Source: Archangium primigenium (GTDB taxonomy: Bacteria > Myxococcota > Myxococcia > Myxococcales > Myxococcaceae). Taken from it: a stretch of DNA of 64,000 nucleotides. Shown one piece after another: positions 1,940-40,800 of this stretch. The notes under the pieces were generated by a model. The model was given only the letters and a program-made list of their open reading frames with translations, was not told the origin of the DNA and did no database searches. The position numbers and the translations under genes were made by a program. Within the stretch, counting starts at the first letter, position 1; each line of letters starts with the position of its first letter. The stretch lies in assembly GCF_016904885.1 (NCBI RefSeq), contig NZ_JADWYI010000001.1, positions 1,240,001 through 1,304,000 on the forward strand, given 5' to 3'.

Positions 1940-2521
1940 CTAGAAGCGCAGCGTGGGGCCGATGAGCAGCGAGTGCAGGGGGTTGGTGCAGGCCCCCGCC
2001 GCGCCCGTGGTGGGGTCGTCCACGCGCACGTCGCACCACTGCCAGGCGGTGGAGGCCGTGAGGCCCAGGTGCTCGCCGAACCAGGCGTCCACGCCCAGGC
2101 GCAGCGCGGTGCTCAACCCCGCGTGCAGCATCCGCCGCAGATCCTCGCCGTCCGTGGGGAAGGCCAGGGGGGTGGAGCGGCTCTGGGACACGCGCAGGCC
2201 CACCCACGGGTTCACGCCGCCCTCGCGCAGGAAGCGCAGCCGCAGCTCCAGGCCCAGCGACAGGTAGTCCAGCTCCGCCTGCTGTCCCGAGAACTTCGCG
2301 CCCCACGTCTGCACGCCCTCGCCCACCAGTCCGAGCGACAGTCCGAAAGGGGTTTCCCCGCCCACGTAGGCTTGCAGGGCGCCGCCCCGGGCCCTCAGGC
2401 CCGAGGTGTGGTCGAGAATGGCGCCCGTGGTGACGGAGGCATACCCACGCCACGGACCCGCCGCCGAGCTCCCCGCCCACAACACGACCATCAGGCTTCC
2501 GAGACTCGTCACGTGTCGCAT
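1940..2521 (-). CDS. Exported outer-membrane-type beta-barrel protein
   Basis: A 193-residue protein with a clear signal peptide (MRHVTSLGSLMVVLWAGSSA, cleavage likely after SSA or SAAG). The mature part alternates short polar/aromatic strands (GGALQAYVGGETPFGLSLGL, LSLGLELRLRFL, ALRLGVDAWFG) and finishes with LIGPTLRF. A C-terminal phenylalanine is typical of proteins assembled into the outer membrane by BAM. It resembles small OmpA-barrel or Skp-like exported myxobacterial proteins but no named family is recognised. Two cysteines (WCDV and GACT) may form a disulfide. It is transcribed divergently from the MoxR operon, with about 107 bases between the starts, so the two promoters share that interval. 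Confidence 0.75.
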   Translation of the reverse strand: MRHVTSLGSLMVVLWAGSSAAGPWRGYASVTTGAILDHTSGLRARGGALQAYVGGETPFGLSLGLVGEGVQTWGAKFSGQQAELDYLSLGLELRLRFLREGGVNPWVGLRVSQSRSTPLAFPTDGEDLRRMLHAGLSTALRLGVDAWFGEHLGLTASTAWQWCDVRVDDPTTGAAGACTNPLHSLLIGPTLRF

Positions 2522-2628: not shown

Positions 2629-3765
2629 ATGGCTTTTTCCTTCGATGAGTCCTGCTCACGTGTCCGTGAGGCCCTGGCCGATGCGGGCCGGGGGCTCGTG
2701 GAGCGCGAGGCGATGGTGGAGGTGGTGACGCTGTGCGCCGTGGCCGGCGAGCACCTGCTCGTCATCGGCCCGCCGGGCACCGCCAAGAGCGAGGCCGTGC
2801 GCCGCACCGCGCGCGCGCTCGGGGGCTCCTACTTCGAGTACCTGCTGGGCCGCTTCACCGAGCCCTCGGAGGTGTTCGGCCCGGTGGACCTGCGCAAGCT
2901 GCGCGAGGGGCTCGTGGAGACGGAGACGGCGGGCATGTTGCCCGAGGCGGAGGTGGCCTTCCTCGACGAGGTGTTCCTCGGCTCCACCGCCATCCTCAAC
3001 ACGCTGCTGGGCGTGCTCAACGAGCGGGTGTTCCGCCGGGGCCACACGCGGCTCGCCTGTCCGCTGCGCGTGTGCGTGGGCGCCTCCAACGCCCTGCCCG
3101 AGGACGAGGCGCTCGCCGCGTTCGCCGACCGCTTCCTCGCGCGCATCTTCGTGGAGCCCGTGCCCGACCCGCGCCTGGAGGAACTGTTGGCCGGAGGCGC
3201 CGCGCTCGCCCTCGAGGGCGAGACGCGCACCGCGTCGCTCGAGGCGCTGGACGTGCTGGCCCGGGCCGCGCGCGAGGCGGACCTCACGCGCGTGCGCCCC
3301 CACCTGGCCCAGGCGCTGCGCCTGCTCCGGGGCGCGGGGCTCGCGCTGAGCGACCGGCGCATGGTGAAGACCCAGCGCCTGGTGGCTGCGGCCGCGGTGC
3401 TCGCCGGACGCCGGGAGCCGGACGGGGGGGATTTGTGGCCGCTCGTCTACGCGGTGCCCACGCAGGCGGGACAGGCCCTGGCGCGCGAGGTGCTGCGCGA
3501 CGTGCTCGCGCGCTCGGAGAACCCCGCGCTCGCCGCCGCGGCCCTGGAGGCCAGCGCGGGGCCGCTCGCGCGCGCCCAGCGGCTCATCCACGCCGCGCGC
3601 GGGGTGCTCGCGGCGCGGCCCGGGGACGCGGAGGGGGAGGCGCTCGCGGCGTGGCGGCTCAAGCTGGAGGGCGTGGTGCGCGAGGTGGACGCGGGCTTCG
3701 CGCCCGAGGCCCTGCCCGAGGACCTGCGGGCCCTGCGCGAGGAAGTGCGCGCCGCGCTTCCCTGA
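2629..3765 (+). CDS. MoxR/RavA-type AAA+ ATPase, first gene of a bpX ternary operon
   Basis: A 378-residue AAA+ ATPase of the MoxR group, chaperone-like machines that work with von Willebrand A (vWA) proteins. Walker A is GPPGTAKS (residues 47-54), Walker B is VAFLDE (109-114), the sensor-1 Asn is in GASNALP (about 154) and the arginine finger candidate is in DRFLAR (about 168). The C-terminal 150 residues are helical and RavA-like. I chose ATG 2629 (MAFSFDESC) because the upstream in-frame codons from 2572 look non-coding. The gene heads a tight cluster (gaps of 21 and 2 bases, then 4-base overlaps) with an exported protein, a small bpX-like protein, a vWA-like/propeller protein and a large propeller protein. 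That arrangement matches the computationally described MoxR-vWA-beta-propeller ternary systems. Confidence 0.9.
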   Translation: MAFSFDESCSRVREALADAGRGLVEREAMVEVVTLCAVAGEHLLVIGPPGTAKSEAVRRTARALGGSYFEYLLGRFTEPSEVFGPVDLRKLREGLVETETAGMLPEAEVAFLDEVFLGSTAILNTLLGVLNERVFRRGHTRLACPLRVCVGASNALPEDEALAAFADRFLARIFVEPVPDPRLEELLAGGAALALEGETRTASLEALDVLARAAREADLTRVRPHLAQALRLLRGAGLALSDRRMVKTQRLVAAAAVLAGRREPDGGDLWPLVYAVPTQAGQALAREVLRDVLARSENPALAAAALEASAGPLARAQRLIHAARGVLAARPGDAEGEALAAWRLKLEGVVREVDAGFAPEALPEDLRALREEVRAALP

Positions 3766-3786
3766 AACGAGGCAAGCTCTCCGCCC

Positions 3787-4470
3787 ATGCGAATGACCCT
3801 GCTCGCCGTGTCCCTGTCGGTGTCCCTGTCCCTTCCCGCGCTCGCCCAGGACGCCGCGCCCCTGGACCTGTCGCGCGTGCCCAAGCAGGGCGCCACGGCC
3901 AAGGACTTCGTGCCCGCCGGTTGGAAGATCGAGCAGACCGTCCAGGGCGACCTGGACAAGAAGGGGGGGGCGGACACGCTCCTGCAACTCGTCGAGGACA
4001 AGCCCGCCGAGTCCGCGGACGGGGTGCCCAACGAGCGCACGCGCGCGCTGCTGGCGCTGCTGGCCGAGGGCGGCAAGCTGCGGCTCGCGGGCGCGAGCAA
4101 CAAGGTGCTCTACTGCACCACGTGCACGGGCACGCTGGGCGGCACGGGCGAGGGCCTGGTGAAGATCGCCAAGGGCGTGGTGCTCGTGGATCAGCTCAGC
4201 GGCTCGCGGGAGAGCACCGGCACGCTCCTGCGCTTCCGCTACGACGCCAAGGCGGACCGCTTCGCCTTCATCGGCGAGGACGTGACGCGCACGGACCGGC
4301 TCGAGGGCACCACCGAGAAGGTGAGCACCAACCTGCTCACCGGCCAGCGCGTCACGGACAACCTCCGCTACGATCCGAAGAAGGACAAGGAGGTGCCCGT
4401 GTCCTCCAAGAAGAGCCAGGTGCCCGTGAAGAAGGCGTACCTCGAGGACGTGGACATCTCCTCGTACTGA
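3787..4470 (+). CDS. Exported protein embedded in the MoxR-bpX operon
   Basis: A 227-residue protein with a signal peptide (MRMTLLAVSLSVSLSLPALA, cleavage after ALA) and no lipobox, so probably periplasmic. The mature N terminus has DFVPAGWKIEQTVQGDLDKK followed by GGADTLLQLVED, resembling a known pattern in exported proteins of unknown function in which a Gly-Trp strand precedes a calcium-loop-like Asp-rich turn (FG-GAP-like). A CTTC motif in YCTTCTG (about residue 113) is CxxC-like. The C-terminal half has YDAKADRFAFIGEDV, then Lys-rich KKDKEVPVSSKKSQ and ends DISSY. It lies 21 bases after the ATPase and 2 bases before the next gene, so it is surely cotranscribed. It may be the envelope-side partner or client of the cytoplasmic ATPase complex; that is inference. 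Confidence 0.75.
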   Translation: MRMTLLAVSLSVSLSLPALAQDAAPLDLSRVPKQGATAKDFVPAGWKIEQTVQGDLDKKGGADTLLQLVEDKPAESADGVPNERTRALLALLAEGGKLRLAGASNKVLYCTTCTGTLGGTGEGLVKIAKGVVLVDQLSGSRESTGTLLRFRYDAKADRFAFIGEDVTRTDRLEGTTEKVSTNLLTGQRVTDNLRYDPKKDKEVPVSSKKSQVPVKKAYLEDVDISSY

Positions 4471-4472
4471 GC

Positions 4473-4907
4473 ATGGACACCGCCACCGCCCTCCTCTGGT
4501 CTCCCCGCGCCGAGCCCCTGCCCGCGCTCGCCGTGGCGGGCGTGGGGCCGGTGGCGCTCGGGCTCGCGCGGCGGGTGCTGCGCGAGGACGACACGCGCCT
4601 GGGGCTCTGGCGCGGCGTGGCGGGCGCGGGCGTGCTCGTGCTCCTGGGAGACCCGGACACGCTGCCCTGGGCCGAGGGCGTGCTCTACCTCGGCCGCGAT
4701 GCGCGGGCGCCCGCGCTGCTCCTGCCCTGCACGCTCGCGCCGGACGTGGCGCCCGCCCTGCTCGAGCGCGCGCTCGTCTCGCGGGCCGGAGGCACCACGC
4801 CGCTCGCCGTGCTGCCGCGCTCGGGGCAGCTCGTGCCCGTGGGGCCCGCGCGGCCCCTGTCCCGCGAGGCCTTGAGGGCCTGGTGTGCCCGGCAGGAGCC
4901 GCCATGA
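4473..4907 (+). CDS. Small bpX-type protein (bpX5-like) of the MoxR ternary system
   Basis: A 144-residue protein without signal peptide or membrane segment. The sequence alternates beta-prone and Ala/Leu-rich pieces: LLWSPRAEPLPALAVAGVG, VLVLLGDPDTLPWAEGVLYL, then ALLLPCTLAPDVAPALLERA. The order of gene, size and the LGDPxxLPWxxGxxYLG segment agree with what I remember of the bpX5 domain protein in MoxR-vWA-beta-propeller ternary systems; the numeral is from memory and unchecked. It starts with ATG 2 bases after the exported-protein gene and its TGA overlaps the next ATG (ATGA at 4904-4907), so translation is coupled to the vWA-like protein. It may act as an adaptor in the same complex. Confidence 0.7.
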   Translation: MDTATALLWSPRAEPLPALAVAGVGPVALGLARRVLREDDTRLGLWRGVAGAGVLVLLGDPDTLPWAEGVLYLGRDARAPALLLPCTLAPDVAPALLERALVSRAGGTTPLAVLPRSGQLVPVGPARPLSREALRAWCARQEPP

Positions 4908-6703
4908 CCGTGCTGCCCGAGGCCCTGCGTCCCTGGGCGGCGCACCTGTCCCTCTTTCCGGAGGAGCTGGCGCTCGCGCTGGGCGGCGCCGTGGCCCGGC
5001 TGGCCGCGGCGCTCGGGCCTCCGCGCATCCGGGGGGATGCCTCCGGGGGCGAGCCCCAGGGCTATGACGGCCTCACCCGGCGCGGAACGCCCGACCGTCT
5101 GCTCGTGAGCGAGTGGCTCCTGGCGATGGAGGCCCCGGACGAGTTCGTGCGCCGCGCCGCCTTCGGTGAGCAGGCCTATCTGCGGCCCGCCTTCCGGGCC
5201 CCCCGGGAAGGTCGCCGGTGCGTGGTGCTGTTGGACGCGGGGCCGGATCAACTGGGCGCCCCACGCATCGCGCACCTGGCGCTGCTCGTGGTGCTCGCCC
5301 GGCGCGCCGAGGCCGCGGGCGCCGACTTCCTCTGGGGCGTGCTCCAGGCGTCTCCGGAAGAGGGCACGACCCCGGGCGTGACCGCCGCCACGCTGGACAC
5401 CTGGCTCAAACGCCGCCGCGCCGAGCCTCCCGACGAGGCACGGCTCGGCGCCTGGCGCGAGGGCCTTCGGGGCGCGGGCGCCGCCGAGGAGGTCTGGCTG
5501 GTGGGAAGCGCGCGGCTCGGCCGCCTGCGGGGCACCGAGGGCCTGTCCCGGGTGGCCGTGGACGAGGTGGTGGCACCGGGACCGCGGCGGCTCGCCGTGG
5601 AGGTGCGGCCCGCGCGAGGCCCCGTGCGGCCCGTGGTGTTGGACCTGCCCCCCGTGGCCCAATGCGTGCGGCTGTTGCGCGATCCCTTCGGCACCGCCAC
5701 CGCCGCGCCCCGGTCGGGGTTCGACAGCCCCGTGCGCTCCCTGCGCTTCTCCCCGGAGGGGCTGCGGCTCCTGCTGTCCCACGCGGATGGGAGCGTGTCC
5801 GTCCTGGCGCCGCCCCATTCCCCACGCGCCACCCTGGCCAGGCCCCGGCGCTTCCTGTCCCGGCCGGACGAGCGGGTCCTGGCCTTCGGCTGGCGGCCCA
5901 CCGGCGGCCTGTTGGTGCTGACCCTGCACGCCGGCAAGCTCCGGATCCGGGGGCAGCTCCAGGGACGCCCGTCCGGGCTCGCCTGGGCGCTGGAGCCCTC
6001 CCAGTTCATGCGCCCTCGGAGCGGAGCGCCCTGCCTGCTCATGTCCCAGCGCGACGCGGAGGGCCGCGAGACGCCCCTGCTGCTGGATGACGGGGGCCGG
6101 CTCGTCGCGCTTCAACCCGAGGGGCCGACGCCCTCCGCGGACCGGGTCCTGCTCCAGTCCGTCACCGCGCTCACCGAGTTCCGGGGCCGCTTCTTCTTCG
6201 TGTGCGGCACCCTGGGGGAGGACGTGCGCCCCGAGCGCGCGTTCTTCACGGGCTGCCTGGGTTACTGGTCGCGGCGGATCGAGGATGCCCTGCCCTTCGA
6301 GGCCCACTTCATGATCGAGGGGCTCGGGTGGGACGAACACGCCGGACCCCGGCTCGCGTGGCGCGATGCGTCCGGCGGATGGAGGCTGGGCCGGGGCTCG
6401 CATGTGCCGGAGGACCAGCGGCTCGACGTGCCCGCCGGAGCGCGGGTCGTGGGGCTCGCGCACGGGCCCTCGGAGTCGAGCACGGTGGGGCTGGTGGTGC
6501 TCGCCGAGGACCAGCGCACCTTCCAGTGTGTCACCGCGGAGCGCACGGAGCGGTTGGTGGTGGCGCCGGAGCGGGTGCGCTCTTGCTGCGTCAGCCCCGG
6601 GGTCCCCCTGCTGGCGTGGCTCACGGAGTCGGGGCGGATGGGCGTGTGGAGCCTTCAGTACCGGGCCCTCGTCATCGACAACCCGCCGGGAGGCACGCCA
6701 TGA
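4904..6703 (+). CDS. vWA-like domain plus beta-propeller protein of the MoxR ternary system
   Basis: A 599-residue cytoplasmic protein that I take as the vWA partner of the MoxR ATPase. Residues about 1-105 are a helical region containing GYDGLTRRGTPDRLLVSEWL, a pattern seen before the vWA domain in CoxE-like partners of MoxR ATPases. Residues about 105-215 look like a vWA fold: RRCVVLLDAGPDQLG, then PRIAHLALLVVLARRAEAAG. The metal site (DxSxS) reads DAGPD, so both serines are lost and Mg binding is doubtful. From about residue 270 the protein consists of propeller-like strands, for example VRSLRFSPEGLRLLLSHADG and VLAFGWRPTGGLLVLTLHAG. It overlaps both neighbours by ATGA (4904-4907 and 6700-6703). 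The ATPase would remodel or be targeted by this protein. Confidence 0.78.
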   Translation: MTVLPEALRPWAAHLSLFPEELALALGGAVARLAAALGPPRIRGDASGGEPQGYDGLTRRGTPDRLLVSEWLLAMEAPDEFVRRAAFGEQAYLRPAFRAPREGRRCVVLLDAGPDQLGAPRIAHLALLVVLARRAEAAGADFLWGVLQASPEEGTTPGVTAATLDTWLKRRRAEPPDEARLGAWREGLRGAGAAEEVWLVGSARLGRLRGTEGLSRVAVDEVVAPGPRRLAVEVRPARGPVRPVVLDLPPVAQCVRLLRDPFGTATAAPRSGFDSPVRSLRFSPEGLRLLLSHADGSVSVLAPPHSPRATLARPRRFLSRPDERVLAFGWRPTGGLLVLTLHAGKLRIRGQLQGRPSGLAWALEPSQFMRPRSGAPCLLMSQRDAEGRETPLLLDDGGRLVALQPEGPTPSADRVLLQSVTALTEFRGRFFFVCGTLGEDVRPERAFFTGCLGYWSRRIEDALPFEAHFMIEGLGWDEHAGPRLAWRDASGGWRLGRGSHVPEDQRLDVPAGARVVGLAHGPSESSTVGLVVLAEDQRTFQCVTAERTERLVVAPERVRSCCVSPGVPLLAWLTESGRMGVWSLQYRALVIDNPPGGTP

Positions 6704-9390
6704 GCCCCGTGCGTCCGCGCGAGCAGGTGCACCGGGGCCGGGTGACCGCGGCGGCGCTCTGGTTCGATGCCCCGTGGCTCGGCGAGCGCGAGGCCCGGCG
6801 GCGGGTGCTGGCGGCGTGGACGCCGGGCGGCGAGGTGTTCGCGCTGGGCGGAGGCCTGCTCTGGCGGCTGCCCGAGCCCGTGCGCATGGACTGCGCCACG
6901 GCGCCGGGGCTCGTCTTCACGCACGAGCAGGGCGTGTGGTGCGCCGCGCCCCTGTCCCCCTCCGAGCGCGAGCGGCTGTCGCCTCCGCCCGGGTCGGTGG
7001 TGTGGGTGCGCGCGGGCGTCGCGCAGGTGCATGCCCTCGGGGCCGCCGAGCGCGTGGACGTGTCGGCCTGGCTCGACACGTCGGGCTGGACGGTGGTGGC
7101 CGTCGAGGGGCTGGGCGCACCACCGCTCCCCGTGGCGGTGCCCGTGCCCGTGCCACCGCCCTCGCGGGCCACCTTCGGCGTGGGCGCCGCCGCGCCCGAG
7201 GCCGAGGCTCTGCGGGCCCGCCTGGAGGGCCGTGCCGCTCCGGAGCCCCACGCGCTCGTCCCCGCCACGGCGCCACCGGGCCTGCTCGCGCGGCTCCTCG
7301 GGTGGTGGCGCGCCCGGCACGAGACCCCGGCCTCCTCCCGTCCTCCTTCCGCCGCTCCCGCCGCCTCGTCGGAAGGGGCGTGGTCCCGGCTCACCGCGGG
7401 GCTCTCCCGCTGGCTCGCCACCGCCACGCCGCTGGGCACCTGGCTCGGCCGTCGCAAGGCGGCCTACGTGCGGCGGCTCTTCGACCTCTTCGACGAAGGC
7501 GCGCTGGAGGAGGCGCTGCGCTACGCCATTCCCCTGGGCAAGGGGGAGCTGTCGGAGTCCACGCGGGTGTCGCTCGACCTGCCCGGGCCGCGCGAGACAC
7601 TGGCCGTCCAGCCCCTGGCGGGCGGCGGGCGGACGGTGTTCGGGGGCGGCGAGGCGCTCTACGACGCCCTGCGCGAGCGCTACCGCGGGGCCCTGCGCAA
7701 GCTGGAGCGCGAGGGGCGCATCGAGGAGGCGGCGTTCGTCCTCGCCGAGCTGCTGCACGAGGCGGAGGAGGCCGTGTCCCTGCTGGAGCGGCATGGCCGA
7801 CCGCGGCTCGCGGCGGAGCTGGCCGAGGGCCGGGGCCTGGCGCCCGGGCTGGTGGTGCGCCAGTGGCTGCTGGCGCGGGACGTGGCGCGCGCGGTGGACG
7901 TGGCCCGGCGCACGGGTGCCTTCGAGGACGCCATCGGCCGGCTCGCGTGCACCCACCCCACCGACGCGCGCGCCCTGCGGCTGCTCTGGGGCGAGGTGCT
8001 CGCGAGCGCGGGGGCCTACGGCCGCGCGGCGGACGTGGTGTGGCCGGTGGTGGAGTCGCGGGGCCTCGCCCGGGTGTGGTTGGAGCGGGCCGTGGAGGCG
8101 GGCGGCGGTGACGGGGCCCAGGCGCTGGCGCGGTTGCTGCTCGCCTTCCCCGAGCGCCTGGAGGACCTGCGCCCGCGGCTGCACGCGCTCTGGGAGGGCG
8201 AGGGCCGCCACGAGGCCCAGGCGCGGCTGCGCTTCCTGCGCGCGCTCGCGGACTCGAGCGAGGGCGGCGAGGTGCGCACGCTGCTCTTGCGCGAGTCGCT
8301 GCGCGGGTTCATGCGCGACGTCGCCGCGGAGTGGGTGCTCTTCGAACCCCGGGAGTTCGAGCGCCTCGTGCAGGCCATGAAGGATCCGGTGCTCGCGGCG
8401 GAGCTGCCCGCGCTGTCCCCCCGGGTGCCGGTGCCCTCCCAGCCGATGTTCCTGTCCTTCGCCGAGGAGACGGGCGGACCCTGGCCCCTCCATGACGCGG
8501 TGCCCTTGGCGGAGGGGCGCGTGCTGGTGGCGCTGGGGGAGCGGGGGGCCCGGCTGCTCTCGCCCGAGGGCCGGTGCGTGGCGCACTTCGACGTGCCGGC
8601 CTTCTCGCTGGTGCTCTCGTGGGAGGGGGACCGGGCGTTGGCGCTCGCGCCCCGGGGCGGACTGCACCGCGTGTCCCGGCTGGACCTGGTGCGGCGCCGG
8701 GCCACGACCTGGTGCGACCTGCGCGTGGACGCCTTCTCGCCCGAGTACGACGGGAGCCTGTGGTTCGTGGCCGAGCGCGACACGGTGCTGGCCCTGGACG
8801 CGCTCGCCGACGAGCCCCGGGCGCTGTGGCGGGTGACGGACGTGGGCGGGCCGGTGGTGGCCCTCACCGCGGGGACCCACCGGATGAGCTTCGTGTGCGC
8901 GCACGAGTCCTTCGCGGGCCCGCTCCTGCTCGAGCGCTGGGCCTATGAGCTGCGGGAAGGGCCCACCCTCCGGGCCCGGCACGTCGTGTCCGCCGCGCCC
9001 AAGTGGCCGGTGTTCCCGCACCTGTCCCTGCTGGCGAACGGGGAGCTGGCGGTGACGGGGATTCCCGGCGCGCGGCTGTCGTGGCTGGCCCCGGCCGACA
9101 ACCCCCAGCTCGTTCCGCCGAAGCCGCCGGAGGAGGGCGACCTGCTGCGGGTGCACCTGGGCATCCCGTGGATCGCGACGCTGGAGGCGCGCCCGGCTCC
9201 CGCCGAGGGGCTCGTCCTGGGCCTCTGGGATCGGTCCCGGGGGCAGCTGCTCGCGCGGGTGTCGCTGGAGGGCGCCCATCCGGAGGCCCGGGTGCGCCGG
9301 GTGGGCAACCAGCTGGTGTTCTTCGATGCCCGGGGCTGGCTTCTCCACATGGAGAACGCCCACGTGCTCCACCGGATCATCCCCCGCTGA
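6700..9390 (+). CDS. Large bpX-type/beta-propeller protein (bpX6-like) of the MoxR ternary system
   Basis: An 896-residue protein with no signal peptide. Residues 1-140 form an N-terminal module with VHRGRVTAAALWFDAPWLGE and EVFALGGGLLWRLPEP, which agrees with my recollection of the bpX6 domain. A Pro/Ala-rich linker (about 145-230) follows. Then comes an Arg/Leu-rich alpha-solenoid region (about 255-560) with repeats such as EALRYAIPLGKGEL and AAFVLAELLHEAEEAVSLLE. The C-terminal third (about 570-896) is propeller-like, for example GRVLVALGERGARLLSPEGR and DAFSPEYDGSLWFVAERD. It is the last gene of the operon; its ATG overlaps the preceding TGA. A weak hairpin with a short T run lies 18 bases after its stop. 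It probably serves as the target-recognition or scaffold subunit, which is inference from the described three-part systems. Confidence 0.75.
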   Translation: MSPVRPREQVHRGRVTAAALWFDAPWLGEREARRRVLAAWTPGGEVFALGGGLLWRLPEPVRMDCATAPGLVFTHEQGVWCAAPLSPSERERLSPPPGSVVWVRAGVAQVHALGAAERVDVSAWLDTSGWTVVAVEGLGAPPLPVAVPVPVPPPSRATFGVGAAAPEAEALRARLEGRAAPEPHALVPATAPPGLLARLLGWWRARHETPASSRPPSAAPAASSEGAWSRLTAGLSRWLATATPLGTWLGRRKAAYVRRLFDLFDEGALEEALRYAIPLGKGELSESTRVSLDLPGPRETLAVQPLAGGGRTVFGGGEALYDALRERYRGALRKLEREGRIEEAAFVLAELLHEAEEAVSLLERHGRPRLAAELAEGRGLAPGLVVRQWLLARDVARAVDVARRTGAFEDAIGRLACTHPTDARALRLLWGEVLASAGAYGRAADVVWPVVESRGLARVWLERAVEAGGGDGAQALARLLLAFPERLEDLRPRLHALWEGEGRHEAQARLRFLRALADSSEGGEVRTLLLRESLRGFMRDVAAEWVLFEPREFERLVQAMKDPVLAAELPALSPRVPVPSQPMFLSFAEETGGPWPLHDAVPLAEGRVLVALGERGARLLSPEGRCVAHFDVPAFSLVLSWEGDRALALAPRGGLHRVSRLDLVRRRATTWCDLRVDAFSPEYDGSLWFVAERDTVLALDALADEPRALWRVTDVGGPVVALTAGTHRMSFVCAHESFAGPLLLERWAYELREGPTLRARHVVSAAPKWPVFPHLSLLANGELAVTGIPGARLSWLAPADNPQLVPPKPPEEGDLLRVHLGIPWIATLEARPAPAEGLVLGLWDRSRGQLLARVSLEGAHPEARVRRVGNQLVFFDARGWLLHMENAHVLHRIIPR

Positions 9391-18049: not shown

Positions 18050-18382
18050 ATGCGAATGAAATCAAGAGCTTTGCCCTTGTGGATGTGGGCCTGGTGCTGT
18101 CTGGCCAGCGCCTGTTTGAACGCGGGACCCGAGGCCACCATCGAGGAGCCCACCGCCAGTGAGTCGGCGAAGGCCTTACTGACGGGAGTCGTCGCTTGTA
18201 ACCCCACCAGCACGGCGAATTGCCAGGGCTGCGCGTCCGGCCTGTGCTTGCAGCGACACTCCGGACGGATTTGCACGACCGCGTGCAGTGACACCCAGCC
18301 CTGTGCCACGGGGAAGGAATGCGAGATGCGGCAGACAGGTGCGGGATTGCTCGGGTACTGCGTGCCCACGGGAAGAAATTGA
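18050..18382 (+). CDS. Cysteine-rich lipoprotein coupled to the RHS gene
   Basis: A 110-residue predicted lipoprotein: MRMKSRALPLWMWAWCCLAS followed by ACLN, lipobox LASAC. The mature part carries ten or so cysteines in a compact arrangement (ACNPTSTANCQGCASGLCLQ, ICTTACSDTQPCATGKECEM), resembling disulfide-rich extracellular modules common in myxobacterial surface proteins. ATG 18050 is favoured (GGA ten bases upstream); GTG 18041 is an alternative. The stop overlaps the RHS start codon (TGATG at 18380-18384), so the two are translationally coupled. It may be an accessory or envelope-anchoring partner of the RHS protein; a role as immunity protein is possible but unsupported. Confidence 0.7.
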   Translation: MRMKSRALPLWMWAWCCLASACLNAGPEATIEEPTASESAKALLTGVVACNPTSTANCQGCASGLCLQRHSGRICTTACSDTQPCATGKECEMRQTGAGLLGYCVPTGRN

Positions 18383-21300
18383 TGAGACCCCTTCGGATTC
18401 GTGTGTTGAGTCTTTGTTCCGCGCTGTATGCGTTGTTCCCCGTGGGCGCCGCGGCGCAGCAGCTCTGCAGTCCGTTCGACGCCATTCCCGCGTCGAACGT
18501 CTCCTCGGGCGGCCGCATGGCCGACGTGGCGGCCTGCTGTGATGGCGAGGCCACCGATGAAGGCTGTGGTCCCTGCCGGTGTGCCGAGTGTGGGGATGAG
18601 CCCGCGGAGCGAAACATCGGTCGTCCGGTGGACGTGCTGAATCAGTTCGCCTGGCTGGAGCGGACAGATACCCACCTCGCCATGCCCAATGGGCCCGCCC
18701 TGCTGATGGGCCGGACGTACTCCACCCACTGGGCGCAATCGAAGGGGGGGCGGGATGAGATTGGCCGACTCGGCCCGGGCTGGACGGACACCTATGGCGC
18801 CCGACTGGTCTTCGATGGCAACTCCCCACCCCAGGTCGTGACGTACCGCAAGGCGGACACCGGCACGGAGAACTTCACCCGGCAGCAGGATGGCTCCTAC
18901 GCGGGCCGGATGCCTGGGCGGCGTCTCGTCTATGACTCGGGGACGCAGCGCTGGGTGATGGAGAAGTTCGATGCCAGCACCGAGGTGTTCGATGCGCTCG
19001 GACAACTCGTGCTGCTTCGCGCTCCGGATGGGGGCGAGGCGCAACTGGTGTATGCCGATGGGCTCAGCTGTCCGGTGACCGCGGCCCGACCGGCGGGCGT
19101 GCTGTGCCGGGTGGACTTCCTCTTCGGCCATCAGCTGTGGTTCAGCTATCACGCCACCGCGTGGCCGGGCGCGACCCGACTGGCCGCGGTGTCCCGGGAC
19201 GCCGCGGGCACCCAGCCGCTCGTGCAGTACGCGTACAACACCGGCGGCTACCTGGTGACGGTGACCCAGCCGGACAACCGGCAGGAGCACTACGCCTACG
19301 CCTTCACCCATGCCTTCCCCCGGTACCCCGGTGCCACGGTGAAGCTGTTGACGTCGGCCACGGACGGGGTGGGGGCGCTGGTGGAGTCCTTCACCTACCA
19401 CCAGGAAGTCCTGGGGCAGAGCCGGGTGACGGTCCACGAGAACCCCGAGGGTCGCTACACGTTCTCGGCGGGCCGGGTGCTCTCGACGTCGAGCGTCCGC
19501 ACCACGCATGTGCGGTCGACCCGCGAGAACCTGGACTACACCTGGGAGGGAGGAAAGCTGAAGACGGTCTGTCACAGCAATGCCCAGGGCTGTGATTCGA
19601 GCCGCATCAAGGAAGTCACGGTGCCCGCCACGGGCATCCAGGCCGCGACCTGCGAGCGAGGCTTCGATGGCTTCTACACGCGCTACCTGCGCGACGCGCT
19701 GGGCCGCCGCACCTCGACGCTCCGAGGGCTCGCGAGCTGCGCTAGCCCGACGGATCAGGAACTCGCCCACGAGGTGTTCAAGGGGTACGTGGCCAACTCG
19801 AACCGTGACGCCTACACCGCTCGCAAGAGCGTGGACACGACGGTGGGAACCCAGACGTTCTCGGTGAACGACTACACGGCGCACAGCGCCGCGGTGGACC
19901 CCCTCTGCGGCAATGCCTCCTGCCAGGTCCCCACGGCCTACAACACGCCCGCTTCCGCGCTCACCTCGCAGGTGCAGCAGCGAGTCCGGTTCGGTCGCAC
20001 CCTGGGCAACACCAATGGCACCTGGGTCAACCGCATGGAGGTGACGAAGTTCACCTACAACAGCCAGGGACTGCTGACGCAGAAGGACGGGCCTCTGCCT
20101 GGCACGGCGGATACCTTGACCTATGAGTACTACGACGTGCTGGGCCCCCAGGCGTCGGCGGGTCGGCTCAAGAGGATCCTCCACGGCACCCGGGTGCTCA
20201 CCGAGTACCAGGATTACGATGCCCTGGGGCGTGCCCAGCGGATCCTGAACGAGAGCGGCCAGGCCACGGTCCAGACCTTCGACGCCATGGGCCGGATTCT
20301 CACGGCGCAGGGGCCGGATGACACGCAGCCGACCGTCCTCACCTACACGGCGGCGGGAAAGCAGCAGGAAGTCAAACTGCCCAGCGGCGCTCGCTTGATC
20401 TACAGCCACAACACCCTCGGTCAGATGACCTCCGTGGGCGTGACGAGCACCCCTTCGGGGACGCCTCCGGTCTTCGATGAGGAGATCACGTACGAGTGGG
20501 GGACGGCCCTTGTCGAAGCGGGCCGCATGCTGAGCGAGAGCTACTCGCGCGACGGCGCCGTGGTGCGCACCACCCGCTATGGGTACGACGACCAAGGTCG
20601 CAAGGCGGAGATCCGCTACATGCGGACGGATGGACAGGACAACGAGCGGGCCGCCGTGCACCTCTCGACCTTCGACGAAGACGGGCACCTCACCACCACG
20701 GAGGTGGGCGTGTCCTCGGTGACCGAGGGGAGCGAGACGGACGCACCCACCAATCACATCTATGACCAGCTCCAGCGGCTGTCCCAGGTGACCCGGGGCG
20801 ACTACGTCACCCAGAACCTGCTCTACGATGTGCATCACAACCTCGCGGAGGTGAACGAGACGAGTGTGTTTGGCTCGGGCACTCCGCGGATGCGGTACAA
20901 GTACGATGACTTCGGTCGGCTCGTGGAGGTGACGAGCATCACCCTGGGGACCCGGCGCTATGTCTATGACGAAGCGGGCAATCGGGTGCAGGAACTCGTG
21001 CCGACCGGAGAGGTCCTGACCACGGCGTATGATGCGCGTGGCCGGGCCCTGTCCATCACGGGGCCGGACTACTCCGTGAGCTTCACCCACGACACGGATG
21101 CGGCCAGTATGATCCTCGATTGCGCGACGGGCACGGCGCTCGGGGCCAGCCAGGGAATGGGTCGCCTCACGGCGGTGACGGAGCCTTCGGGCAACACCTA
21201 CTTCGGGTACACCGTGGGAGGGCGGCCGCGCTTCGAGGCGAGGGTTGCTCCAGGCGCCACCTGCGCGAAGACCATGCGATGGGAATACAATACCAACGGT

Positions 21301-23799
21301 ACCTTCGCCGCCTTGCGCTACCCCAGTGGTGCGCGCATCCGTTACGACTACCCCACGGGTGTGCTGCATGCCCGTGAGCTCTCCGCGATGGTGCTGGAGG
21401 TGGGAGCCTCGTCCATTCCTCTCACGACGGGCCTGGTCTGGTCGGGTGGGGGACTCAGGGCCTACTCCGCGGGCAATGGTCTCATGTGGAGTCTGTCGCG
21501 CTGGATGGATGGTGCTCCGCGTGAGTGGAAGCTCACCCAGGGCCCTGGCGGTGCGTTGGTCCGCAACCGTGTCTTTGGCGAAGAGGTGAACGGTACGCTC
21601 GAGCCTCGCGTGAACGGACGCGGCAGTCCCAATCGCATCGAGGAGAACGTTCCGGCTTGGACTCGAGGCTACACGTACGAGCCCGGGACGGGACGCCTGA
21701 TGATCGACAGCAGTCCGGATTACGTGGAGCAGTACCTCTACACGACGGATGACAACCGTTCCTTCTCCTTCGGCTCTTTCCCCCAGAATTCGGGCATGAG
21801 CAGGACCTCGTCGTACACGTACAACAACAGCAACAACTCTCGTCTGTCGAGTGTCAGCACCACGGAAAGCCCGTCCGGTCCCACCACCACTCGAACGTTC
21901 ACTTACTCCACGAGTGGCATGGTCACCCAGGTGAACACGGGCGGCAGGCTGGCGGCCATGTGCTACGACAGTCGCGAGCAGGTAGGCGCCGTGGTGGGGC
22001 CGGGCGGCCAGTACAGTCGGCAGCACTTCAACTACCGGCGGCAGCGTGTCCGCGAGGTGTGGCCGCTCAACGAGTTGGTGACGGATTACTGGGTGGACAG
22101 CGGTGGGTCGCTGCTTGTGGAGACGGGCGCGGCGAGTCTCACCACCCAATACCCCCGGCCTGTCTGGGAGTACGTCTACCTGAATGGCATGCCCGTGGCC
22201 CGCGTGGACTCGGTGGAGGCCGTGAATGGCACCACCACGTACCAGGGAGTCACCTGGCTGTTCGGAGGTCACCTGGGTGAGCTGTTGGTGGAGGCGGACG
22301 CCGACGGTCACGTGATCCGCAACTACGATTATTCGTCGTTCGGTGCCCGCACGGCGCGGCCGACGCCCGCGGTGCCGTCGAACGTCGTCCTGAGCCGCGC
22401 GGCTCCGTCGACCCAGGTGGTGTTGCCTGCCTCCGCCTCGGCGGTGTTGCGCTTCACCAACTACGCCCTGGCGTCCTGTGACAGCGTGGCGGTGGTGGAT
22501 GCGGAGGGACACCTGCTCAAGCGGTTGTCCGCGAGTCAGTCGGCTCAATTCGAGACGGCGAGCCTGCCGGCGCAGGGGGCCTCGATCCAGGTGGTGTTGG
22601 AGCCGGGAGCGTGCGCGGGTCCGTCCTCCTTCACCCTCGCGGAGGTCAAGCCGACCTGGGGCCGTGCCTCGGAAACGGTCCTGACGGGCCATGCCTCTCC
22701 CCATCCCTATCCCGCGGCGGGGTCCACGACCACGCTCTCGCTGTCGTCTCCCTCGCACCTGCTCGTGGAGAGCCACCTGGCGGATTGTGACAGCCTCGAG
22801 GTGCGCCGGAGCGTCACGGGTGAGGTCTTGTGGACCTGGCCGCACGATGGCGGTGTACTGCGCACCGCCTGGACGCCCGAACTGTCCGGGAGCGTGGACG
22901 TGGGCATCTGGAGCAGCGCGGGCTGCAACCAGGGCCAGCAGCAAGCGGGCTTCGCCGTGCTCCGTCAGTACACGCGGCAATCCCCGGGTGCTGCCTCCAA
23001 CCTGCACTACCCGGGACAGCGCAAGCTCGTCGCCGCGGCCAATACCCGCCGGGGCGCGTTCATGGAGCCCGAGGCGGATCTGCTGGAGAACTGGTTCCGT
23101 GTCTATGAGCCTGGTACGGGACGGTACATGCAGCCCGAGCCGTTGGCGTCGGTGGTCCCGGGCATGTCCCTCGGCTCCACATATGGGTACGCCGACAACA
23201 ACCCCCTAGGTGCTGTTGATCCAACGGGGCTCTTCACGCTGTCACCTGGCGCCCCAATCTGCAACAACTGGGATGAGGCGCTCAAACTCGCGAGAAAAAA
23301 GGCGGGTTGTGACGGTGGATGCAAGAAGTGCAAGACGCCGTGTGACGTCTGCCAGATGCTTCAAAGCGATACATACCCCATCGTTTACCTGATTGAGGTT
23401 CTCCAGAATACCGAACACGTAAACGATACTCGGGTCAAAGGTCGAGTTACCATCCAGGCGCATACGGATTATTGGAAGCAGATGAGTCCTATTATTTATC
23501 CGCAGACGGAGGAGTTGAACTCGTTTGCCAGAGGAATCTGGCCGGGAATGGAGGAGGGATACCACTACACAGTCGCGTTCAAGAAGAGTCTTTGCAATAA
23601 GCCAGTCAAGGGGTCCGAGTACATTGGAAAAGACAATCTGGAGAATCTCGCGATGGCGATGCTCCATGAGTCGATTCATATGTGCATGGCTTCGGGGATT
23701 GTGAGCGAGGAAACACTGGATGATCGGCCTTTGAGTTTGAACAGTCCTTGGACGACGGATACGCAAGACGTGGTGGACCAGTGCTGGAAGCAGAAGTGA
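18382..23799 (+). CDS. Exported RHS-repeat protein with HExxH C-terminal tip
   Basis: A 1805-residue secreted RHS/YD-repeat protein. A signal peptide (RVLSLCSALYALFPVGAAA) is followed by YD repeats such as YDALGRAQRILNESG and YDDFGRLVEV. RHS shells are hollow beta-cocoons around a C-terminal toxin. The core motif is present near 23100-23235 (YEPGTGRYMQPEPL, YGYADNNPLGAVDPTGLF). The variable tip (residues about 1617-1805) has a five-cysteine cluster (CDGGCKKCKTPCDVC) and HESIH (1762-1766), an HExxH zinc metallopeptidase signature. The tip DNA is clearly poorer in G+C than the shell, as expected for exchanged tips. ATG 18382 follows directly from the upstream lipoprotein stop. No obvious immunity gene follows; the next gene is a polysaccharide ligase starting one base after the stop. 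Confidence 0.88.
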   Translation: MRPLRIRVLSLCSALYALFPVGAAAQQLCSPFDAIPASNVSSGGRMADVAACCDGEATDEGCGPCRCAECGDEPAERNIGRPVDVLNQFAWLERTDTHLAMPNGPALLMGRTYSTHWAQSKGGRDEIGRLGPGWTDTYGARLVFDGNSPPQVVTYRKADTGTENFTRQQDGSYAGRMPGRRLVYDSGTQRWVMEKFDASTEVFDALGQLVLLRAPDGGEAQLVYADGLSCPVTAARPAGVLCRVDFLFGHQLWFSYHATAWPGATRLAAVSRDAAGTQPLVQYAYNTGGYLVTVTQPDNRQEHYAYAFTHAFPRYPGATVKLLTSATDGVGALVESFTYHQEVLGQSRVTVHENPEGRYTFSAGRVLSTSSVRTTHVRSTRENLDYTWEGGKLKTVCHSNAQGCDSSRIKEVTVPATGIQAATCERGFDGFYTRYLRDALGRRTSTLRGLASCASPTDQELAHEVFKGYVANSNRDAYTARKSVDTTVGTQTFSVNDYTAHSAAVDPLCGNASCQVPTAYNTPASALTSQVQQRVRFGRTLGNTNGTWVNRMEVTKFTYNSQGLLTQKDGPLPGTADTLTYEYYDVLGPQASAGRLKRILHGTRVLTEYQDYDALGRAQRILNESGQATVQTFDAMGRILTAQGPDDTQPTVLTYTAAGKQQEVKLPSGARLIYSHNTLGQMTSVGVTSTPSGTPPVFDEEITYEWGTALVEAGRMLSESYSRDGAVVRTTRYGYDDQGRKAEIRYMRTDGQDNERAAVHLSTFDEDGHLTTTEVGVSSVTEGSETDAPTNHIYDQLQRLSQVTRGDYVTQNLLYDVHHNLAEVNETSVFGSGTPRMRYKYDDFGRLVEVTSITLGTRRYVYDEAGNRVQELVPTGEVLTTAYDARGRALSITGPDYSVSFTHDTDAASMILDCATGTALGASQGMGRLTAVTEPSGNTYFGYTVGGRPRFEARVAPGATCAKTMRWEYNTNGTFAALRYPSGARIRYDYPTGVLHARELSAMVLEVGASSIPLTTGLVWSGGGLRAYSAGNGLMWSLSRWMDGAPREWKLTQGPGGALVRNRVFGEEVNGTLEPRVNGRGSPNRIEENVPAWTRGYTYEPGTGRLMIDSSPDYVEQYLYTTDDNRSFSFGSFPQNSGMSRTSSYTYNNSNNSRLSSVSTTESPSGPTTTRTFTYSTSGMVTQVNTGGRLAAMCYDSREQVGAVVGPGGQYSRQHFNYRRQRVREVWPLNELVTDYWVDSGGSLLVETGAASLTTQYPRPVWEYVYLNGMPVARVDSVEAVNGTTTYQGVTWLFGGHLGELLVEADADGHVIRNYDYSSFGARTARPTPAVPSNVVLSRAAPSTQVVLPASASAVLRFTNYALASCDSVAVVDAEGHLLKRLSASQSAQFETASLPAQGASIQVVLEPGACAGPSSFTLAEVKPTWGRASETVLTGHASPHPYPAAGSTTTLSLSSPSHLLVESHLADCDSLEVRRSVTGEVLWTWPHDGGVLRTAWTPELSGSVDVGIWSSAGCNQGQQQAGFAVLRQYTRQSPGAASNLHYPGQRKLVAAANTRRGAFMEPEADLLENWFRVYEPGTGRYMQPEPLASVVPGMSLGSTYGYADNNPLGAVDPTGLFTLSPGAPICNNWDEALKLARKKAGCDGGCKKCKTPCDVCQMLQSDTYPIVYLIEVLQNTEHVNDTRVKGRVTIQAHTDYWKQMSPIIYPQTEELNSFARGIWPGMEEGYHYTVAFKKSLCNKPVKGSEYIGKDNLENLAMAMLHESIHMCMASGIVSEETLDDRPLSLNSPWTTDTQDVVDQCWKQK

Positions 23800-36520: not shown

Positions 36521-37674
36521 GTCCCGACGCGTCCCAGGCGTGCGCGGTCCTCTTCCGCCGCGCCCTCCAGGCGCAGCATCGAGTGGCGGCCCACCATGAT
36601 GTGGACCGCCTTGCGCGTGCGGCGAAAGACGTTCTCCTGCACGTAGGGCAGGCCGTAGCGCTCGCACAGCGCCTGGACCCGGGCCTGCGAGCGCTGCAAC
36701 TGGAGCAGGGACAGCCCCGGCCACAGGTGGTGCTCGATCTGGTAGTTGAGCCCACCGTGCAGGAAGGCCAGCACGTCGCCTCCCGTCGTGTAGTTCGTGG
36801 AGCCCAGGATCTGCCGGACGCAGTAGTCCGCGCGGCCCTGGGTGCGCTCCTCGAAGCGGTAGATGTCCTCGCCCGCGTGATTGGGGGCGATGAGCACGAA
36901 GCTCTGGAGGTTGGCGAAGACCTCGGCGAGCAGCGAGTTGAACAGGACCGCGAGCGCCGCCGCGCGGCCCAGGGGCAGGAACAGCAGGGGCGCGAGCACG
37001 AACCGGACGCTGGCGTAGGGCAGCAGGCACATCCACCAGAAGGCCCGCCCGTCGGCCGTGCGCGGGTCGAAGGCCTTGTGCATCCAGAAGGGCCCGTCCT
37101 CGTCGTCCATCTCCGGCAGGCGCTTCTTGGCCCACCGCCATTCCAGGAAGGTGCTGGGCGCGTAGTAGGTCAACCGCCAGGTGCACGCCAGGATCGCCAC
37201 GATCACGTAGCGCAGCGCCATGGGAATCCGGGAGGTGCGCAGCCACTTCATGCGCCGCTCCACCAGGTCGGGATCCTTCGTCTCGCCGGTGTGCCCGTGG
37301 TGCAGGACGTTGTGCTCGTGGCTCCACGCCTGGGGGTGGATCCAATCCAGCCAGTCGATGGCGCGGCGCCAGCCCCGGGCGAAGGTCTTCTCCCGCGCGC
37401 CGTCCGGGGCCTGGGCCACGCGCTCGTAGCCCCGGTGCAGCACGTGGTGGGCCACGATCGTCCAGCGCGCCGTCATGCCCTGGGCGATGAGCCACGCGCT
37501 GAGGGGGTTGGGCGCCAGCCAGGCGGTCGCATACCCCAGCACCGCGCTCAGCCGACCCCACCGGCTCATCTTCTGGAGGTGGCGGAGATCCTCTTCGCCT
37601 GGGGTGGACTCCAACTGGCTCTTGATGGTCTGGAGTTCCTTGACGAAGGACTCCCTGGCGGAAGGCGCGATCAC
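36517..37674 (-). CDS. Membrane fatty acid desaturase
   Basis: A 385-residue di-iron membrane desaturase. All three histidine boxes are visible: HHVLH (about residue 76), HEHNVLHHGH (about 116) and NYQIEHHLWP (about 312), the last with the QxxHH form found in front-end and acyl-lipid desaturases. Four or more hydrophobic segments surround them. It inserts a cis double bond into a fatty acyl chain using O2 and an electron donor. No ATG exists near the start of the homologous region; GTG 37674 (MIAPSARESFVKELQTIK) is my choice. The gene is divergent from the HYR protein gene. Confidence 0.9.
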   Translation of the reverse strand: MIAPSARESFVKELQTIKSQLESTPGEEDLRHLQKMSRWGRLSAVLGYATAWLAPNPLSAWLIAQGMTARWTIVAHHVLHRGYERVAQAPDGAREKTFARGWRRAIDWLDWIHPQAWSHEHNVLHHGHTGETKDPDLVERRMKWLRTSRIPMALRYVIVAILACTWRLTYYAPSTFLEWRWAKKRLPEMDDEDGPFWMHKAFDPRTADGRAFWWMCLLPYASVRFVLAPLLFLPLGRAAALAVLFNSLLAEVFANLQSFVLIAPNHAGEDIYRFEERTQGRADYCVRQILGSTNYTTGGDVLAFLHGGLNYQIEHHLWPGLSLLQLQRSQARVQALCERYGLPYVQENVFRRTRKAVHIMVGRHSMLRLEGAAEEDRARLGRVGT

Positions 37675-37855
37675 GGTGCCGGATATAGTCAGAGGCGCGC
37701 GGGTCCACCCACAAGCGCTTTGTTGGGTCGGCACGTCTGCCCGATTGGCTGGGTACGGGCCGCGCGTCACCCGCCCCTCGAAGACACATACACACTGTCC
37801 GTACGGATTTCCGCGCGCGCGCGGGAGGCACCGAAGAGGTCTATCCTCCCCCGTC

Positions 37856-40800
37856 ATGCCTCGCTTTTCCGTGCCGTCCCGCCTCGCCGCGCTCGCGGCG
37901 GGGTTCCTCTTCGCCTGTTCCTCCACCACGCCCGAGCCGGACGTCACGGCGCCCGCGCCGGCCGAGAGTGTCTCGCCGTCCTTCGATGTCCAGGCCGTCA
38001 TCCGCCGGGTGACCCGGACGTTCCACTCCGAGTCAGGCCGCTTCTCGAGCATGCAGGGGACCTACGCGGTCCAGGTCGCGCCCGAGGGCACGGTGCGCTT
38101 CGCGGCGCGTCAGGCCGCCCTGTCCGCGGAGGCCCTGGTGTTGCGCACCGCGTCCCTCGCCCGGGGTGGACAGGCCCTGACGAGCGCCGTCCGGACCACG
38201 GTGCGCGAGGACGGCGCGCTCGCCCTGGACCGGGGCGCGGTGGTGGAGGTGCTGGAGAACGCCGACGGCGGGCTCGCGCAGCGCTGGGAGCTGGCTGGCA
38301 AGCCCCGGGGCGCGGGTGACCTGGAGGTGCGGGTGGTGGTGGCGGGGCTCGCGTACGCGGGCGAGACCGCGGGCGGGCAGCACTTCACGGACCCGGCCAC
38401 GGGACTGGGCGTGCGCTACGGCCAGGCCACCTGGGTGGATGCCCGGGGCGTGGAGACCGCCGTGCGGACCGAGTACACGGAGGGCGCGCTGCGCCTCGTC
38501 GTGCCGGAGGCGGTGCTGGAGTCGTCCACGTGGCCCGCGCGCCTGGCGCCCCTCCTCTCCCCGGAGATCCGTCCGGACACGCCCGTCTTCGCGCCAACCT
38601 CGCTCAATGAGGCGGCCCCCGTGACGGCCCATGCGGAGGGAACCCTGCTCGTGGTGTGGGACGTCCTCGTGGGCACCCAGCGCGACATCGTCGGCACGCG
38701 CGTGCGGGCCTCGGATGGCGCGGTGCTCGACCCCACGGGCATCGTCCTGGCCTCCAGCTCCGTGGAGGAACACCAGCCCACCGTGGCGGCCCAGGGCGGC
38801 GTCTTCCTGGTGGCCTGGCGGCAGTTGAATGGGGGCATCTACCGCACGCGCGTGCGGGCCTCCACCGGCCAGGTGCTCGACGCCGCGCCGGTGAAGTTCT
38901 CGATCAGCGGCTCCACCGCGCACTCGCCCGCCGCCGCCTGCGGCACGGACGTGTGCGCCGTGGTGTGGGGTGAGTCGTCGGGCATCCTCTCCGCGCGGGT
39001 GCGGCTCTCGGATGGGGTCGTGCTGGGCACCTCGACCCTCTCCACCAAGGCCATGGCCGCCCAGGGCGATCTCGCGGTGGCCGCCGATGAGTCCCAGTTC
39101 CTCGTGGCCTGGTCCGTGACGGTCGGGACCGGCACCCGGAATCAGGACATCCAGGGTGTGCGGTTCCGGGCCGCCAGCGGCTTGATTCTCGATTCCTCCC
39201 CCCTGCTCATCTCCACCGCCGCCGACATCCAGAACGCGCCCGCCATCGCCTTCACCTCGGGTCACTTCCTCGTGGTGTGGTCCGACACCCGTCTCACCAC
39301 CTCCACCGGCCTCTACGGCTCGCGGGTGCGGGCCTCGGATGGCGCGGTGCTCGACCCCTCGGGCCTCCTCATCGCGTCCTCCTCGGACAAGCCCGCCGAG
39401 GTGGCCGTGGGCACCGATGGCACCCAGTTCCTGGTGGCGTGGCAGAGCATGGTCGGCTCCCTGTACGAGCTCCACGCCCGGCGGGTGACGACCGCGGGGG
39501 CCGTGGTGGAGCCCTCGCCCGTGGTGCTCGCCAAATCCTCCACGAGCGGGGCCTATTCGCCCGCGCTGGCCTTCGACGGGACGCACTACCTGCTGGCCTG
39601 GATGCGCCGCGAGTCCAGCGATGCGTCCCAGAACATCTACGGCGCGCGCGTGCGCCCCTCGGACCTGGGCCTGCTCGAGCCCGCGGGGACGCTGCTGTCC
39701 GCGCAGGCCAACCGCCAGTCCTCGCCCGTCGTGGCCTGGGGCGGGGGCAAGTACCTCGTGGCATGGCTGGACTCGCGCCAGCGCGCCAGCGGTGAGGACC
39801 TCTACGGCGTGCGGCTCGGGGTGGACGGCCAGCCGCTCGACACCACGGCCATCCCCCTCTCCACGACCGCCGCCGTGAAGACCTCGCCCCAGGTGGTGTC
39901 CGATGGCGCCGACTTCCTCGTGGCGTGGAACGTCGGCTCGAGCATTCAAGGCGCGCGCGTGCGGGGCGCCGATGGCGTCGTGCTCGATCCCACGGCCCTC
40001 CCCATCTCCGGCACCCAGAGTCTCATCGGCGCGCCGCGGTTGGCTTTCGGCGGCGGGCACTACTTCGTGGCCTGGACCGACCAGCGCGTCACCAACGACA
40101 CCAACGTGTACGGCGTGCGGCTGCGGCCCTCGGATGGCCAGGTGCTGGACGCGTCCGCCCTCCTCGTCTCGGGGGCTTCTGGGACCCAGAACTCCCCCGC
40201 GGTCGCGTTTGGCGCGGGCTCGTTCTTCGTGACCTGGCTGGACGCGCGCGCGGGCCGCAATGAAATCTATGGCGCGCGGATCAGAGCGGCGGACGGCGAG
40301 GTGCTGGATCCCGCGGGCCTGGCGATCTCCACCGGTTCGACCTACCGGACGGATCCGGTCGTGGCCTCCGATGGCACCCGCTTCCTGGTGGCCTGGCGCG
40401 ACCAGCGCACGGGCACGGGCGATTTCTATGGGAGCCGGGTGGAGGCCGCCACGGGCCAGGTGCTCGATCCGGCGGGGCTCGCGCTGCTCCTCGAGCCCAG
40501 CCTCCAGAACGTGTCCTCGCTCCTCTTCGATGGGAGGAACTACCTGCTGGTGTGGTCGGACACCCGGAGCGGCTCGGTCCGCCTCAATGGCCTGCGGTTG
40601 AAGCCGGAGGGCACCGCGCTGGATGGCACGGGCTTCCTCATTGCCCCGGGCGTCTCGTTCTCCACGCCGCCCCCCGCCGCGGCGTCGGGGCCGGGCCGCT
40701 ACCTCTTCGCGGCGGCGCCCACGGACACGGTCACGCGGACCCAGCGTGTCGTGCTGTGGCGGGGCGTGATCGTCCCGGATGGAGAGGCCTGCGCGGGCGC

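Follow-up and report, generated by a model that had tools for sequence, protein, structure and literature searches.

A beta-propeller MoxR operon in Archangium primigenium, with an exported gene that is probably an unrelated insertion between moxR and bpX5

The 64,000-nt stretch of Archangium primigenium DNA analysed here, hereafter the window, contains five consecutive genes on the forward strand. An earlier note on this DNA described them as a complete MoxR–vWA–beta-propeller (bpX) ternary operon with an exported subunit, and its account of the layout agrees in full with the ORF coordinates: gaps of 21 nt between moxR and the exported gene and of 2 nt between the exported gene and bpX5 are followed by ATGA overlaps at the boundaries of bpX5 with the vWA-like gene and of the latter with the bpX6 gene. 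The features of the locus are the following.

1940–2521, minus strand: divergent gene for a signal-bearing protein of 193 aa, outer-membrane-protein-like by eye, a syntenic neighbour in Myxococcaceae
2629–3765, plus strand: moxR, bpMoxR AAA+ ATPase of 378 aa (PF20030, E = 4.2e-84)
3766–4472, no strand assigned: junction of moxR and bpX5, a recurrent insertion slot in Myxococcaceae as judged from interval lengths in relatives, here containing the exported gene
3787–4470, plus strand: exported protein of 227 aa (signal peptide by eye), lineage-specific insertion outside the core
4473–4907, plus strand: bpX5 protein of 144 aa (PF19921, E = 6.9e-25), following moxR in the core order
4904–6703, plus strand: P0004, vWA-like (Rossmannoid, MIDAS motif not kept) protein of 599 aa with a C-terminal beta-propeller (AlphaFold2 model)
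6700–9390, plus strand: P0005, protein of 896 aa with a bpX6 domain (PF19922, E = 1.9e-35), linker, helical-repeat region and C-terminal beta-propeller

The spacing of 21 and 2 nt makes it likely that the exported gene is co-transcribed with the operon. A promoter scan found nothing, such scans being uninformative at this G+C content.

The moxR product scored 281 bits against the Pfam bpMoxR model, for which the cut-off is 27. Its motifs include Walker A (GPPGTAKS), Walker B (VAFLDE), sensor 1 and an arginine-finger candidate (DRFLAR); among 33 aligned relatives Walker A is invariant and the remaining motifs are nearly so; the ATPase motifs are intact. A RavA model also matches residues 9–180 (E = 2.8e-43), but its 148.7 bits fall far under the NCBIfam equivalog cut-off of 681, and identification as RavA was rejected. 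The small bpX-like protein of the earlier note proved to be bpX5, and its large bpX-like/propeller protein was likewise borne out by the PF19922 match and by a modelled propeller. In the AlphaFold2 model of P0005 (pLDDT 73.5), the bpX6 region precedes a low-confidence linker, helices at 317–568 and a propeller at about 583–893 (also delimited as 593–896), for which structure comparison gave a best Z of 19.6 (rmsd 3.6, 273 residues aligned).

The fourth protein, P0004, is less straightforward. Against Pfam it shows weak WD40 similarity only, and its AlphaFold2 model (pLDDT 77) shows helices at the N-terminus, followed by a region of alternating alpha and beta elements at 105–259 and a beta-propeller at 274–596. 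The propeller half of the proposed vWA-like/propeller protein is well founded in this model (best Z 12.1, rmsd 4.8, 265 residues aligned), the Foldseek/VIA rows spanning the propeller only. The vWA half, by contrast, was not confirmed by any profile: residues 105–259 have the alternating strand–helix order, but Pfam vWA models matched neither P0004 nor its 20 close or 36 diverse relatives, and profile–profile comparison with the vWA domains of the same genome gave no match. At the expected first strand P0004 reads D111-A-G-P-D-Q, a D-x-G-P-x-Q pattern in which D111, G113 and Q116 are invariant among the 36 diverse relatives. As the DxSxS MIDAS motif is absent, we call the protein vWA-like only. 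The putative vWA assignment is drawn from operon position and from the published description, according to which some of the vWA domains in such systems are missing one MIDAS aspartate or both (Kaur et al., PMC7159879). In the profile searches bpMoxR, bpX5 and bpX6 all scored well above the respective cut-offs, and there was no vWA match. Of the complete ternary operon the bpMoxR, bpX5, bpX6, propellers and gene order stand, while the vWA fold does not have the same footing.

Two samples were used to follow the locus in relatives: 117 genomes from the order, in which 33 bpX6 loci besides that of the window were read, and a separate collection of 80 named loci, which overlaps with the first. 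bpX6 is present in 44 of the 117 genomes, and no match was obtained in the other 73. Wherever contigs were long enough, the core order moxR–bpX5–vWA/propeller–bpX6 was identical in both samples, and among the named loci it is kept in Myxococcota, Acidobacteriota, Armatimonadota and Pseudomonadota. Such constancy across the named loci indicates that the gene order is not due to chance and, with the ATGA overlaps in the window, gives the cluster an operon-like character. In two Massilia loci the operon contains tandem vWA-like/propeller matches, two in one case (L158:7199-10764) and three in the other (L170:7196-12524).

The exported gene behaves differently. Its product begins with MRMTLLAVSLSVSLSLPALA-Q, which by eye resembles a Sec signal, and has no Pfam match; eight aligned members of its family conserve Cys110 and Cys113, and relatives show weak FG-GAP similarity. 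One member matched a PliI-type lysozyme inhibitor model at E = 0.027; since PliI matched none of the genomes searched, controls included, nothing follows from this and the candidate was set aside. By the criterion of the earlier note, its reading would be refuted if the relatives all lacked the exported gene at this locus. No homologue of the gene was found in any locus read, neither in the 33 other order genomes nor in the 80 named loci. The family does occur elsewhere, in nine of the 117 order genomes. Its two best homologues lie in genomes of the same genus, to which three carriers of the family (G092, G111 and G113) belong; a full-length bpX6 protein query found nothing in these three. In G113 and G111 the family gene adjoins a GH92-like gene, and a truncated copy occupies the same site in G092. 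In the window genome the GH92-like orthologue lies at 3.89 Mb and the exported gene at 1.24 Mb, and the two are therefore unlinked. Two further genomes hold both the exported family and bpX6, on different contigs. A C-terminal fragment of the family is also found elsewhere in the window genome (G000:C1:5671699-5671854; 65% identity over 52 residues). Accordingly, the description of this protein as a subunit of the complex is not supported, and envelope surveillance, hinted at by its signal peptide, was rejected as a reading. With good probability the gene is an unrelated stray that inserted between moxR and bpX5 in this lineage, not a conserved subunit; given its likely co-transcription with the operon, it could conceivably have been recruited recently in this one species. 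With this false lead dropped, the minimal unit comprises four genes.

The junction itself appears to be receptive to such insertions. L066 and L067, the most divergent of the family members read, leave no space there: their moxR and bpX5 genes share 4 nt. Other Myxococcaceae have a gap of tens to hundreds of nt, and many have extra content at this point; of the 32 order genomes that could be measured, 10 have an interval of more than 500 nt, as do 12 of the named loci, which all belong to Myxococcaceae. The other two core junctions are closed among the named loci, with the sole exception of a 985-nt interval in Minicystis. The content of the slot is heterogeneous: in the Archangium-like genome L050, a lipoprotein-like gene accompanies one for the T6SS immunity protein TsiV (PF11876, 4e-42); Corallococcus-type loci have an antisense AHSA1 gene together with genes for an exported protein and for a lipoprotein that weakly resembles globins; one Myxococcus (L123) has a PAAR-like toxin gene (PF13665) with DUF2169; and there is DUF2381 (PF09544) in L098, to which the gene in L114 is closely similar by eye. 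Several slot genes in other lineages are antisense to the operon. The simplest reading of this variety is that the junction tolerates insertions and that the exported gene is one of them. It is unlikely that the Myxococcaceae slot docks exchangeable envelope- and T6SS-related cargo handled by the MoxR–propeller complex, with the exported protein as the current cargo in this species. Alternatively, the complex might have recruited the exported protein in this lineage, either as a functional sensor of the envelope or as a client. Its tight spacing on the operon strand and the exported or lipoprotein genes in other Myxococcaceae slots would fit this idea, but those slots also hold the other kinds of gene listed above (for T6SS immunity, a PAAR-like toxin and AHSA1, some of them antisense), the remaining genomes with the exported family show no linkage between it and the MoxR–propeller system, and no strongly hydrophobic, membrane-type segment was found in the four core proteins; we regard it as very unlikely. 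The locus as a whole is thus probably the four-gene core of a beta-propeller MoxR–vWA subsystem into whose moxR–bpX5 junction one unrelated exported gene has landed.

A second candidate for an envelope partner is the divergent gene at 1940–2521, whose product likewise has no Pfam match. It neighbours moxR in most Myxococcaceae loci, mostly 45–460 nt away, and among the 50 of 117 order genomes with strong matches to it are 40 of the 44 that carry bpX6. Against a true partnership, ten genomes retain the gene without bpX6, which led us to reject it as an obligate partner, and no copy was found next to the core in loci other than those of Myxococcaceae; that this gene is the system's true partner in the envelope is therefore highly improbable. 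In one of the genomes in which bpX6 was not found (G099), moxR is matched over 107 codons at 78% identity beside the neighbour gene (L090:7450-7773), a partial match that looks like the remnant of a lost operon. In another (G062), which has the neighbour gene and no bpX6, other genes occupy the space between the flanking markers.

Rates of evolution differ within the core. By the Nei–Gojobori method, applied to ten Myxococcaceae pairs, dN/dS reached 0.34–1.04 for the propeller of the vWA-like protein and 0.44–0.88 for that of the bpX6 protein (eight pairs with data), compared with 0.07–0.33 for MoxR, 0.10–0.30 for bpX5 and 0.10–0.31 for the N-terminal part of the vWA-like protein; dS is approximate at this G+C content, and the comparisons hold within pairs. 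A pair of MAGs outside these genera (L130/L137) showed no faster propeller evolution. None of the values, which are below or near 1, gives clear evidence of positive selection, and the increase could result from relaxed constraint. The finding is new but modest. It points to the fast-changing propellers of Myxococcaceae as possible recognition surfaces and marks where to seek the target of the system.

The locus is a myxobacterial version of a four-gene ATPase machine that is already known and occurs in several bacterial phyla. MoxR–vWA–beta-propeller ternary systems were described as vWA–MoxR subsystem 4 and proposed to be regulated conflict systems, with a GxxxTAKS P-loop and a divergent vWA among their features (Kaur et al. 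2020, PMC7159879). The locus shares with subsystem 4 a bpMoxR with this P-loop, a propeller component with a divergent vWA-like region, an extra small conserved gene, the lack of an effector, and a third component, here P0005, with a variable N-terminus, helical repeats and a C-terminal propeller. It differs in the one unrelated inserted exported gene and in that the fastest-changing domains in Myxococcaceae are the propellers and not the N-terminal bpX6 domain; moreover, the membrane-spanning segment described for the third component in PMC7159879 is not evident here (top 19-residue hydropathy mean, 1.41). With RavA–ViaA and other MoxR chaperones the locus has the MoxR AAA+ ATPase in common, whereas the partners are different. 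VMAP, iSTAND and FtsH ternary systems likewise combine MoxR with a vWA-type partner in a three-component operon, but no VMAP, STAND, FtsH or effector domains were found among the five proteins here.

It may be supposed that MoxR subunits form an ATP-driven ring acting through the vWA-like protein, that the bpX6 protein would join the complex via its helical repeats or its propeller, and that the two fast-changing propellers would recognise a changing target, whereupon ATP hydrolysis would remodel the complex or a bound partner. The likeliest use of such a remodelling complex would be as a cytoplasmic switch or surveillance (conflict) system. The fast propellers and the patchy loss make us lean in this direction, tentatively and with slightly less than even confidence. 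Neither an effector domain nor a PADLOC match was found, the sole hit of MoxR to the PADLOC models being mad8 (E = 0.021, 29 residues), and the genes immediately around the locus do not form a defence-island context, so the conflict role is proposed by analogy. The want of effectors, recurrent partners and mobile-element copies leaves room for a housekeeping maturation chaperone serving one client complex, like RavA–ViaA or MoxR–MoxC. MoxR–vWA pairs of known role are indeed assembly chaperones, and the core is chromosomal and self-contained, with no match in phages, two partial matches only in plasmids and, apart from common families and closely related loci, no functional neighbours that recur in distant loci. 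Nevertheless, a housekeeping function sits uneasily with the 73 of 117 order genomes in which the core has no match, with the lack of a match where the neighbour gene is retained, a partial moxR match being left in G099, and with the rapid change of both propellers, which would be unusual for binding a constant client; we consider the chaperone plausible without expecting it. As the earlier note held, no experiment on the beta-propeller subsystem was found in the literature searched; the subsystem does occur in predatory bacteria that can be cultured, among them a strain of Myxococcus xanthus (L126).

Elsewhere, the window encodes an RHS-repeat protein of 1826 aa (18319–23796; PF05593), a 1663-aa protein with HYR domains (37475–42463; PF02494) and a methyl-accepting chemotaxis protein with CHASE3 and HAMP (50629–52275).
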